Assembly (NCBI GenBank): GCA_000495735.1
Contig: AYMD01000002.1
Span: forward strand, 209,793-273,792
Length of the DNA: 64,000 nt
Direction: 5' to 3'
From: an uncultured Acidilobus sp. JCHS
GTDB taxonomy: Archaea > Thermoproteota > Thermoprotei_A > Sulfolobales > Acidilobaceae
The notes under the pieces are model-generated. The model ran no database searches, had not been told where the DNA came from, and saw only the letters and a list, made by a program, of their open reading frames with translations. A program made the translations under genes and the position numbers. Positions 5,419 through 46,989 of the stretch are shown here, piece by piece; within the stretch, counting starts at the first letter, position 1, and each line of letters starts with the position of its first letter.

Positions 5419-6159
5419 TTGGGGAGCGACTTGGGCTGCCGTGAGGCGGTGGTCAAGCTGGGCGGCTCGGCCATCACGATCAAGTCGTCACCTGAGACCG
5501 TTAACTGGGAGTCGCTGAGCAGGGTTGTCTCGACCCTGGCGTCCTTCGTGAGGTCAGGGGGCAGGCTAATTGTCGTCCACGGCGGGGGGAGCTTCGGCCA
5601 CTACGCTGTGGACAGGCTGCAGCGTGAGAGGGGCTCGCTGGGCCCCCTTGAGGTCGCTGAGGTCCAGAGGGCGATGCTGGTCCTGGCCATGGCGGTCATC
5701 AGCGAGCTGACGGGGGCCGGGGTCCCAGCGACGCTACACCCCGCCCACACCATGTGCAGGTCCCAGACCTCCTGCGACCTGAGGCCTATGGTGAGCGACT
5801 ATGAGGCTGGGCTCGTCCCCGTGACCTACGGCGACGCCGTGCTATGTTGCGGCAGAGGGGAGATAGTTAGCGGGGACTACCTGGCCTCCCAGCTCGCTAC
5901 CCTCGTCAAAGCTGAGTGCCTGATATACGTCACCGACGTAAAGGGTGTCCTGGGGCCTGACGGCTCCGTGATGAGGCAGGTGAGGCCTGGCGAGCCTATA
6001 GGGGCCCTTAGGTCATCAGGGCCTGACGTTACAGGGGGCATCAGCAGGAAGATATTGGAGGCCGCCTCGTCCGCCGCCAAGGTCGTGAGGATAGTCCACT
6101 GGGAGGACCTGGACAGGGCGCTGAGGGGCGAGGAGGTGGGGACACTCGTAGTGAGGTAG
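5419..6159 (+). CDS. ipk: Isopentenyl phosphate kinase
   Basis: Amino-acid-kinase-fold enzyme of about 246 residues that phosphorylates isopentenyl phosphate to IPP in the archaeal mevalonate route to membrane lipids. Visible motifs are VVKLGGSAIT (phosphate-binding Lys and Gly), VVHGGGSFGHYAV with the catalytic His typical of IPKs, VTYGDAV, SGDYLASQLA, YVTDVKGVLGPDGSVM and DVTGGISRK. The start is ambiguous: TTG 5419, TTG 5431 or GTG 5446 all precede the first conserved strand by a few residues. Follows the MEMO and GHMP-like genes on the same strand. Confidence 0.9.
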   Translation: MGSDLGCREAVVKLGGSAITIKSSPETVNWESLSRVVSTLASFVRSGGRLIVVHGGGSFGHYAVDRLQRERGSLGPLEVAEVQRAMLVLAMAVISELTGAGVPATLHPAHTMCRSQTSCDLRPMVSDYEAGLVPVTYGDAVLCCGRGEIVSGDYLASQLATLVKAECLIYVTDVKGVLGPDGSVMRQVRPGEPIGALRSSGPDVTGGISRKILEAASSAAKVVRIVHWEDLDRALRGEEVGTLVVR

Positions 6160-6244
6160 CGGCGTCAGTTCGGGGGTTCCGTTTTCTTCACAGGTCAAGC
6201 CATGCCAGGGTCCTCATCCGCCGCCGCTATACCTGTAGCTTCCA

Positions 6245-6457
6245 GGGGGTTCAGCTCTCATATAGATTCGTGTTGCCTTACGGTCATCGCCTCATCCCTG
6301 TTCCCCCGCACCCCGCTCGGGCTTTCATCGGGCTTGGGGGCGTTCAGGGCCACCCCAGGGGCCCCACATCTTGAGTGCTCGGTTATGTACATCCTGTATG
6401 TGCTGATTGCGGTGACAACTTATAAACCTACATGAAAGTTGAAACAGCTACGTAGGG
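6245..6457 (-). repeat. Repeat copy R1: TnpB-tail relic / candidate omega-RNA-like element
   Basis: Nearly identical to 46780-46989 (about 15 differences and a 4-base indel by eye) and related to 27459-27658 in inverted orientation. On the minus strand a frame reads STYRMYITEHSRCGAPGVAL followed by NAPKPDESPSGVRGNRDEAM and a stop. Its pattern resembles the C-terminal tail of IS200/IS605 TnpB proteins. A TATA-like TTTATAA (minus strand, plus 6420-6426) is retained 5' of the frame. GC-rich self-complementary runs (CCCCC...GGGGG) would fold strongly. No transposase body is present. It fills most of the gene-free gap 6160-6515. Confidence 0.6.
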
Positions 6458-6478
6458 CTTTTTACAAATGAAAGCCTA

Positions 6479-6502
6479 GCCCTTTAGGTCTGGGAGGAGG
6501 TC
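6479..6502 (+). other. Degenerate IS605-like terminal hairpin motif
   Basis: GCCCTTTAGGTCTGGGAGGAGGTC resembles, in reverse complement, the GACCTCCTCC...GCCCTGAAGGGC end motif seen clearly at 35861-35884. The stem is imperfect here. It lies on the side of repeat R1 opposite to where a right end would be expected, so it may belong to a separate decayed insertion. Confidence 0.35.
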
Positions 6503-6515
6503 AGGATGTCCTGCC

Positions 6516-27214: not shown

Positions 27215-27311
27215 ATCTTACCTCCTCAGCCGTTGGAGGGTAAGGGAGCCTTTAATATAGAGATGCTAAAGCCTGCGGTCGCTTAAAAACGCCCAGGCGC
27301 CTTCAACAAGG

Positions 27312-27390
27312 GGGCCCGTAGCCCAGCCAGGATCAGGGCGCCAGCCTGCGGAGCTGGAGGTCCCGGGTTCAAGTCCCGGCGGGCCCGCCA
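27312..27390 (+). tRNA. tRNA-Arg (GCG)
   Basis: Acceptor GGGCCCG/CGGGCCC, D stem GCCC/GGGC, anticodon stem CCAGC/GCTGG with loop CTGCGGA (anticodon GCG, reading CGC), T arm CCCGG-TTCAAGT-CCCGG shifted by one G, discriminator G and an encoded CCA (27388-27390). No intron. Repeat R3 begins about 70 bases downstream. Confidence 0.92.
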
Positions 27391-27458
27391 GCTCTGCTGA
27401 CCTTGTTATTGGCTTAGCGGAGCAACTACAACAGAAGAAGTGCAGAAGTAGCCTTCCA

Positions 27459-27658
27459 TAGCTGTTTTCGGTTTTCATATAATTTTGTAGGGTGTCATTC
27501 AACTAACGTCTACATGAGGTATGCAAGGAAGCGCTTAAGAAGTGGGGCCCTAGGGCGGCCCTGAACGCCCCCAAGCCCGATGAAATCCCGAACGGGATGC
27601 GGGGGAACGATAGGACGATGACCGTAAGCTGCATGAACCCATAATGGGACCTAACCCC
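27459..27658 (+). repeat. Repeat copy R3: diverged TnpB-tail relic
   Basis: Related to R1 and R2 but in the opposite orientation. It shares AGCTGTTT, a TATA-like CATATAAT, then RYARKRLRSGAL in one frame and, after a one-base deletion near 27555, ALNAPKPDEIPNGMRGN in the next frame. These align with RYVKEHSRCGAPG and ALNAPKPNEGPSGVRGN of R2. GATGACCGTAAG is also conserved. No hairpin end motif follows. The gene-free stretch 27391-27777 holds nothing else I can identify. Confidence 0.55.
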
Positions 27659-27777
27659 TCAGACGAGAGCCTTTCTTCATCAAGTCAGGCGGTTTGCTAC
27701 CAATCACCGGGGCCGTTAAGAGAGCTAATAGCGAACTCGTTTTAAACCTCATCGCCTACAGACCTGTGAGAAGGGCC

Positions 27778-28893
27778 TTGAAGGGCGGCTTCGTTGGCAA
27801 GGAATATCTTCTGAGCCTGCTCAGGTCGCTCTCGGAGTCCTTTGGGCCCTCAGGGTTCGAGGACGCCGTGAGGGAGATAGTCGTCAAGGAGGTCGAAAGC
27901 GTAGCTGACTCCGTCTGGGTCGACTCCATGGGGAACCTGTTCGCGCTCAAGAGAGGAAGGAAGGGCGGCGCCAGCCTAATGCTCACGGCCCACATGGATG
28001 AGATAGGTTTCATAGTGACGCATGTTGATAACAGGGGCTTCCTCAGGGTCGCACCAATTGGGGGGCAGAGCCCGAGGGTCATACAGGGCCAGAGGGTACT
28101 GGTCAGGGCCAGGGACGGCTCCCTGGTAAAGGGCGTCATAGGGAGCAAGCCGCCTCATGTCATGAGGCCTGACGAGGCTAAGCAGTGCCCTGAGGTCAGG
28201 GACGTCTACGTAGACGTGGGCGCCGCCAGCGCCCAGGAGGTCGAGAGGATGGGGATAACTGTCGGCAGCCCGGTGGCCTTTGAGAGGGGGCTTGAGAGGC
28301 TGAACGAGGACACTGTTGTCGGCAAGGCCTTTGACGACAGGGCGGGCCTGGCGGCGGTGATAGGGGCCTTCAAGGCGGTTGAGGACCAGGCCGTGGACGT
28401 CTACCTTGTCGCAACTGTGCAGGAGGAGGTAGGCCTGAGGGGGGCCCAGGTGGCTGCCTATAAGATCTCGCCCAGCGCAGCGATAGGCGTTGACACTACG
28501 ATAGCGGCTGACGTCCCAGGGAACGAGGAGAGGGACTGGGTGACGAGGTTAGGCGCAGGGCCAGCCATAAAGGTCGCCGACAACCCAGCGTCATTCTATG
28601 GGCTCATGGCCAACAGGTCCCTGAGGGAGAGGCTTGAGGAGGTGGCTAGGTCGCACGGGATACCGTACCAGCTTGAGGTCCTACAGGGAGGCACCACTGA
28701 CGCCTCTGCCATAGCCCTCACTAAGGAGGGCATACCGGCTGCCGTGGTCTCGGTCCCGACGAGGTACGTCCACTCACCCTCGGAGGTGCTGAGGCTATCG
28801 GACCTTGAGGGCGTCACGAAGCTCCTAGCGTTGTTCACAGAGGAGGTAAGCCCTGACTGGCTGGCAGGCCTCTCAACGTCAAGGGTTAAGTGA
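27778..28893 (+). CDS. M42-family metallo-aminopeptidase
   Basis: About 371 residues. Co-catalytic metal ligands are in order: His in LTAHMDEIGF, Asp in GKAFDDRAGL, Glu pair in TVQEEVGLRG, Asp in GVDTTIAAD, and His in TRYVHSPSEV. SFGPSGFED is the usual N-terminal hallmark. Forms large tetrahedral dodecamers that trim peptides downstream of the proteasome. I prefer TTG 27778, because a TATA-like TTTTAAAC at 27740-27747 lies between it and the frame start at 27694, and homology begins only after it. Confidence 0.9.
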   Translation: MKGGFVGKEYLLSLLRSLSESFGPSGFEDAVREIVVKEVESVADSVWVDSMGNLFALKRGRKGGASLMLTAHMDEIGFIVTHVDNRGFLRVAPIGGQSPRVIQGQRVLVRARDGSLVKGVIGSKPPHVMRPDEAKQCPEVRDVYVDVGAASAQEVERMGITVGSPVAFERGLERLNEDTVVGKAFDDRAGLAAVIGAFKAVEDQAVDVYLVATVQEEVGLRGAQVAAYKISPSAAIGVDTTIAADVPGNEERDWVTRLGAGPAIKVADNPASFYGLMANRSLRERLEEVARSHGIPYQLEVLQGGTTDASAIALTKEGIPAAVVSVPTRYVHSPSEVLRLSDLEGVTKLLALFTEEVSPDWLAGLSTSRVK

Positions 28894-28898
28894 GGAGG

Positions 28899-28973
28899 GG
28901 CCCGGGGCGGGATTTGAACCCGCGACCTCCGGGTCCACAGCCCGGCGCTCTAGCCAGCTGAGCTACCCGGGCC
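28899..28973 (-). tRNA. tRNA-His (GTG)
   Basis: Minus-strand cloverleaf. The extra G-1 expected of tRNA-His is followed by acceptor GCCCGGG/CCCGGGC and discriminator C73. D arm GCTC/GAGC, anticodon stem CCGGG/CCCGG with loop CTGTGGA (anticodon GTG), T arm GCGGG-TTCAAAT-CCCGC. CCA is not encoded. It lies 5 bases after the M42 peptidase stop, tail to tail. Confidence 0.95.
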
Positions 28974-46779: not shown

Positions 46780-46989
46780 GGGGGTTCAGCTCTCATATAG
46801 GTTGTTGCCTTACGGTCATCGCCTCATCCCTGTTCCCCCGCACCCCGCTCGGGCCTTCATTGGGCTTGGGGGCGTTCAGGGCCACCCCAGGGGCCCCACA
46901 TCTTGAGTGCTCTTTTACGTACCTCCTGTATGTGCTGATCGCGGTGACGACTTATAAACCTATACGAAAGTTGAAACAGCTACGTAGGG
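46780..46989 (-). repeat. Repeat copy R2: TnpB-tail relic / candidate omega-RNA-like element
   Basis: Minus-strand frame reads AISTYRRYVKEHSRCGAPGV and ALNAPKPNEGPSGVRGNRDE, then AMTVRQQPI and stop. It aligns residue for residue with R1. TATA-like TTTATAA is kept at plus 46953-46959. Unlike R1 and R3 it still has the terminal hairpin downstream. The rest of gap 46622-47022 is featureless apart from these. No zinc-finger or RuvC part of a TnpB is recognisable upstream. Confidence 0.6.

Follow-up and report, generated by a model that had tools for sequence, protein, structure and literature searches.

Gene-less IS607-like elements with a putative TnpB guide-RNA scaffold behind a promoter-like left end in Acidilobus and related archaea

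The window analysed here, a stretch of 64,000 nucleotides from an uncultured Acidilobus genome (contig AYMD01000002.1), carries a short repeat in which only the tail of a tnpB gene can be read, and it raises the question of why such a tail is kept and multiplied when the gene itself is gone. Copy 1 occupies 6246..6457 on the minus strand (about 212 bp), with its left end at 6457, its right end (GAACCCC) at 6246 and a putative guide flank running from 6245 downwards; copy 2 lies at 46781..46989 on the minus strand (209 bp); and copy 3, at 27452..27658 on the plus strand (207 bp), is older and more diverged and is located about 60 bp past tRNA-Arg(GCG). These bounds include the CC at each end. 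The copies show 93% and 75% mutual identity, with BLAST E values down to 1e-89, far beyond chance, and a frame reading ALNAPKP(D/N)E..PxGxRGN is found in all three. The original prediction placed a TATA-like box in every copy; in the sequence, TTTATAA is present at 6420..6426 (minus strand) in copy 1, some 45 nt ahead of the RNA core described below, and at 46952..46958 (minus strand) in copy 2, but the box of copy 3 is degenerate (AATTTTGTA). Similarly, the three predicted copies are all present, but they are part of a genome-wide family whose size had been underestimated: a search of the own genome (G000; 1.48 Mb, 13 contigs) gave 11 BLAST places, comprising approximately nine short elements (minis) and one broken full element. 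In the closed genome of a congeneric sister species (G002), 19 places were found, or over twenty when weaker matches are included, and a genome search of a further member of the genus (G003) returned zero copies. The element edges are sharp, the flanks of 19 aligned copies being 26-28% identical compared with 73-87% for the insides.

Two neighbouring features of the window were also observed. The left end of copy 1 is immediately adjoined, at 6461-6504, by a different repeat, which has over a dozen copies in G002 and is similar to the hairpin (CCCTTTAGGGCGGGGAGGAGGTCAG) at the right end of further TnpB genes of the own genome; it may be the remnant of a second omegaRNA family. In addition, comparison with G002 and G003 places breakpoints of rearrangement at 6159-6229 and at approximately 27300-28900, next to the copies at 6.2 kb and 27.5 kb, which have opposite orientations, and the 71-bp segment at 6159-6229 lies beside tRNA-His in the relatives.

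The short frame had been predicted to be a TnpB C-terminus, and the same sequence indeed ends tnpB genes in the own genome and in relatives, which answers the concern that no related TnpB would end in this way. The mini-element sequence corresponds to the tnpB 3' end at loci L012, L123, L132-L136 and L143, and both Pfam and NCBIfam assign the tail-bearing proteins to TnpB. In the own genome, the tnpB gene at L012 (G000:C2:116.4-119.8k) ends in ...SRCGAPGVALNAPKPDEAPSGVRGNRDEAMTVRQQPI, which is followed by the right end GAGAGCTGAACCCC, and the same left end lies in front. An intact gene with this tail had been looked for in the same genome; a gene is present, but it is frameshifted and broken by assembly gaps, and the intact versions are found in relatives. 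Its counterpart in G002 (L123) is an open frame of 459 residues with part of the zinc finger missing, and open cognate TnpB frames of 415-455 residues are found in other genomes (G101, G141). Given the damage to the cognate TnpB of the own genome and of G002, a working partner there is only putative. Element sizes are bimodal, with about 55 short copies of 208-426 bp and nine long ones of 1443-1518 bp, and none is of intermediate length. Taken together with the tnpB genes that have the same tail and ends, this implies that the minis derive from a tnpB element of 1.44-1.52 kb through loss of its middle, in agreement with the prediction that the tnpB body is gone and the RNA-bearing end is kept. 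The minis encode no protein and are thus non-autonomous, as had been proposed.

What is kept differs strongly between the two sides. The left end is approximately 36-58 bp in most types and only about 35-40 bp in several, with TTTATAA in most copies, while on the right, nearly all types retain 126-163 bp and one retains 198 bp, with at least 126 bp in every case. The junction between the two differs among mini types (that of the window, those of G068, G123 and G034, that of G141 and a Jordarchaeum MAG, and others), which amounts to at least three separate deletion patterns, although some types may share an ancestor. The ends form imperfect terminal inverted repeats (CTGTTTCAACTTTCATATAGGTT at the left end, GGGGTTCAGCTCTCATATAGGTT as the reverse complement of the right end), and the minis combine the features of MITEs, being short and multi-copy, with terminal inverted repeats and ends common to a longer element.

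Several observations concern the full elements. At L012, the element interrupts a gene, and an intact paralogue of that gene sits between its two halves (G000:C2:115000-122000); the left and right junctions map onto two GCC^TC sites 220 bp apart in the paralogue, and the 220-bp gap could be a real loss of target or an artefact of scaffolding (20-base N runs). Between the left end and tnpB, full elements have a conserved antisense ORF of 47 residues (MAKFIYVESTVIKYRGGTVVLYPLAKYQPEVKPLHGRKVHVIIIAEE; L012:4569-4709, L123:1729-1869, L132:1725-1865 and others) with zero matches in Pfam and NCBIfam, which the minis of G034 retain without tnpB. The 5' start of the tnpB frame (L132-L138, L123, L012) forms a long hairpin, GCTACYC..GAGGGGTGAAGAGCC / GGGCTCTYCCCGAGGGTAGC, with compensatory differences between genomes; several mini types (L177-L185, L148, L071) retain this hairpin immediately ahead of the scaffold, its loop being trimmed, and it is absent from the window minis.

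The right part of the minis overlaps the tnpB 3' end and extends to the transposon right end, as is the case for omegaRNAs and reRNAs. In copy 1, the core to the right end spans 6246..6374 on the minus strand (alignments A2 and A3; match of covariance model R1 at G000:C2:216038-216166, E 8e-33) and contains helices A, B and D and a guide-adjacent pseudoknot; the corresponding regions, both in alignment A3 and matched by R1, are 46781..46906 on the minus strand in copy 2 and 27535..27658 on the plus strand in copy 3 (G000:C2:237327-237450, E 2e-23). Alignment A3 comprises 59 sequences from many genomes, in which helices A (6 pairs), B (5 pairs) and D (2 pairs) and the pseudoknot are paired in 92-96% of cells. 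The helices were named from mutual information and then counted against controls: A3 contains 49 double-changed cells, compared to 15.4 +/- 3.2 in shuffles and at most 13 in slid controls, and A2 contains 53, compared to 17.5 +/- 3.3 in shuffles. The covariation score is 0.204, against no more than 0.090 in slid controls, and none of 500 shuffles matched the observed changed cells or the covariation score. For one helix-A pair, CG, GC, UG and UA are all present among the sequences. The pseudoknot joins the helix-A loop GGGGT to the final bases ACCCC and is paired in 95.9% of cells, mostly through conservation, with one double change; a pseudoknot at this same place has been described in the reRNAs of ISDra2 and ISXfa1 (PMC10711439). 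RNAalifold on A2 returned a weak helix of 4 pairs only. In several lineages (L157, L083, L086, L087, L079, L081), AGGGT/GACC replaces AGCCC/GCGG (A3 columns 47-49 and 64-66), a clean compensatory switch that should be useful in structural work. A local hairpin, CCCGAGCGGG, was rejected, in that variants change AGCCC and GCGG together and the CCC of that hairpin stays constant. Both an Rfam search and a covariance model had been proposed as checks. Run at gathering thresholds and permissively up to E 10, the 4227 Rfam models gave zero matches; the covariance model recovered the window copies and detected the scaffold RNA in 49 of the 214 genomes examined from the order. Judged from these comparative data, the kept right part is a complete, structurally conserved putative guide-RNA (omegaRNA/reRNA) scaffold.

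Since the paired bases are also coding in full elements, codon positions were compared between full tnpB genes and minis. The change per codon position is 0.071/0.074/0.134 in full tnpB tails and 0.051/0.116/0.053 in minis, so that the third-position excess is gone in the latter; this would look like the pattern expected for constraint at the RNA level after loss of coding, with the statistic weakened by recent common descent, as many minis may stem from few founders and the copies are then not independent. Within the minis, conservation is 0.87 in the RNA core, 0.79 in the left end, 0.73 in the spacer and 0.82 at the right terminus. A scaffold-free census was made with a 13-base right-end motif in six genomes, where 50 loci, chosen partly for being unlisted by the scaffold model and including a few full tnpB elements, were evaluated: 45 have the full core, one has most of it, two are without it and two lie at contig ends. 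The core is thus kept in 46 of 48 evaluable right ends found by the motif alone, and its retention is therefore not an artefact of the scaffold query. The occurrence of the same design in dozens of related genomes suggests that it is the RNA that is being retained.

By the covariance model, copies per genome reach at least 16, and a search with the tail also gave matches in Methanomethylicota, Nezhaarchaeota and one Jordarchaeum MAG. Some mini-bearing genomes lack a full cognate TnpB: at E 1e-30, none was matched in G008 (at least 16 copies), G034 (5) or G126 (14), and in G068, a closed genome with at least 16 copies, just an N-terminal fragment is present. Their copies are either served by another TnpB or relics, and lower model scores allow for relics. 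Copies sit at unrelated sites that differ between sister species; mobilization in trans, which this and the copy number point to, would account for their spread. Exact target junctions between close strains were not seen, and the comparison of empty sites with the sister species was blurred by high intergenic divergence. In viral contigs, 31 exact matches to the right-end motif were found, none with the scaffold, and these are regarded as chance matches.

The family to which the elements belong had been predicted to be IS200/IS605, but the results favour IS607. No Y1 TnpA was found in the own genome, which encodes five serine recombinases; among 16 genomes tested, serine recombinases occur in 13 and Y1 TnpA in 4. 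Complete IS607 elements in the own genome (L093; tnpA of 211 aa, tnpB of 434 aa), G002 (L254) and G034 (L255) match the left-end and the scaffold/right-end models of the family at modest E values of 3e-4 to 4e-3, and L082 and L165 carry a deleted tnpA-tnpB fusion with a serine-recombinase N-terminus and the same tail. The left flank is GCC in nearly all copies, and the right end is a fixed CCCC; the paralogous target of L012 fits a CC crossover, but with the 220-bp target loss. IS607 recombines between GG dinucleotides, and a fixed right-flank nucleotide is counted in the reRNA scaffold (PMC10711439). The absence of Y1, the serine recombinases, the IS607 elements with homologous ends and the GCC flanks and CCCC ends together argue for IS607. 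It is very improbable that these are PATE-like IS200/IS605 elements moved as single strands by a Y1 TnpA; the TnpB tail and the 3'-end RNA would suit that origin, being common to both families, but Y1 TnpA is missing from 12 of the 16 genomes, and the imperfect terminal inverted repeats, the probable CC junctions and the sharing of both ends with complete IS607 elements speak against it. An IS607 element has a serine-recombinase TnpA of its own, and neither the protein-less minis nor the full elements, which contain tnpB without tnpA, encode one; they are therefore filed as non-autonomous IS607-like elements rather than as IS607 elements.

Based on the results presented above, we consider it probable (about 0.8) that the minis are non-autonomous IS607-type elements consisting of ends, usually a promoter and a full scaffold, which would be moved in trans and whose RNA would guide a borrowed TnpB for their retention. 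That they are instead plain, MITE-like deletion derivatives, in which the 3' block is kept only as right-end DNA bound by the TnpA transposase and the RNA is an inert leftover, is doubtful, although it deserves real weight: the minis occur in many copies that share a small number of junction types, and the donor tnpB genes of the genus are broken. Against it, the best-conserved part of the minis is the RNA core and not the terminal bases, changes preserve RNA pairs in noncoding copies as well, and a left end of only about 35-40 bp is enough in several types where the right always has at least 126 bp; it is this covariation and asymmetry of the two ends that weaken the case for end DNA. A conserved short protein can hardly be the reason for retention: the tail peptide ALNAPKPDE..PSGVRGN could be translated in many copies, where its frame is readable, but frameshifting indels interrupt it in several minis (e.g. 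L006, L007, L058, L059) and in copies of G141, and there is neither a third-position excess nor a conserved start. A domesticated or regulatory small RNA, working with a TnpB that is nuclease-dead or unrelated, or acting as a decoy that titrates TnpB and having no role in transposon retention, would fit the genomes in which five to at least 16 copies occur without a full cognate TnpB (G068, G008, G034, G126), as well as the conserved core of noncoding copies; we regard it as improbable, as the unrelated sites and flanks (identity 0.26-0.28) and the differences between sister species look like spread rather than a fixed host function.

For the preferred reading, that of trans-moved elements with a working guide RNA, the following mechanism is proposed. 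The minis have an IS607-like left end in which most copies carry the TATA box at the position of the tnpA promoter of related complete IS607 elements; there, the box lies just before tnpA, and conservation of TTTATAA in the left end extends from the minis to the full elements and to related IS607 elements. Nearly all of tnpB is deleted and the complete putative omegaRNA/reRNA scaffold is kept, so the deletion would bring the left-end promoter immediately in front of the scaffold and turn the mini into a free-standing omegaRNA gene. At the right end, which closes with GAACCCC, the guide would come from the adjacent host DNA. A serine-recombinase TnpA would move the minis in trans, with crossover at the CC (=GG) dinucleotide. 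In the current view, TnpB cleaves empty sites and thereby retains the transposon at its position. By analogy, the mini RNA would be transcribed, bind a TnpB made elsewhere in the cell and direct cleavage of the empty donor site (GCC + flank), which would promote re-copying of the mini into that site and its retention, the role that TnpB plays in complete elements.

Among known systems, the minis resemble IS607 elements, including those with the ISXfa1 reRNA (PMC10711439) and RAGATH-18 RNAs (PMC11061315), with which they share a probable CC/GG junction, right-flank nucleotides within the scaffold, the guide-adjacent pseudoknot and a TnpB-coded right-end RNA; complete IS607 elements with homologous ends also occur in mini-bearing genomes. 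They differ in having neither tnpA nor tnpB, in a scaffold outside Rfam and in its position next to the left end. Non-autonomous derivatives of TnpB elements are already known, as are omegaRNAs. The PATEs of Haloquadratum walsbyi (PMC3119063) are likewise archaeal, multi-copy and protein-less, but they are of IS605-type origin, carry palindromes in subterminal position and may consist of the termini alone (52 bp), and the part of that paper drawn on here describes no guide RNA for them. Sense-overlapping RNAs and omegaRNAs of Halobacterium and Sulfolobus acidocaldarius (PMC12558985, PMC12817955) also derive from the tnpB 3' end and were detected experimentally; these sit inside tnpB, whereas the RNA region of the minis stands without the gene and is known here from sequence. 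Prokaryotic MITEs, in a review whose text makes no mention of TnpB, IS605 or IS607 (PMC10969869), resemble the minis in being short and multi-copy, with inferred movement in trans and imperfect terminal inverted repeats. The minis are unlike them in bearing a conserved structured guide-RNA scaffold. Later work in Geobacillus reportedly found PATEs that retain the omegaRNA. In the literature searched, which covers TnpB work partially, there is no precedent for a gene-less IS607-type element made of promoter, guide-RNA scaffold and ends and present across an archaeal order in several junction types.

The elements described here are gene-less and have IS607-like ends and, as their alignments indicate, a constrained guide-RNA scaffold behind a promoter-like left-end sequence. 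More tentatively, they may be guide-RNA-only transposons that arose repeatedly, each with its own promoter and omegaRNA, and that spread or are retained through borrowed TnpA and TnpB, even outliving their own tnpB; the RNA gene would then be the selfish unit, and, where cognate TnpB is lacking, the RNA may be used by another TnpB lineage or be newly employed. The minis add to the heat-loving archaea a covariation-supported guide-RNA family outside Rfam, with GCC as its predicted target motif. As a large natural set of elements stripped to the guide RNA, they ask whether an RNA and a borrowed nuclease suffice for the retention of a transposon.
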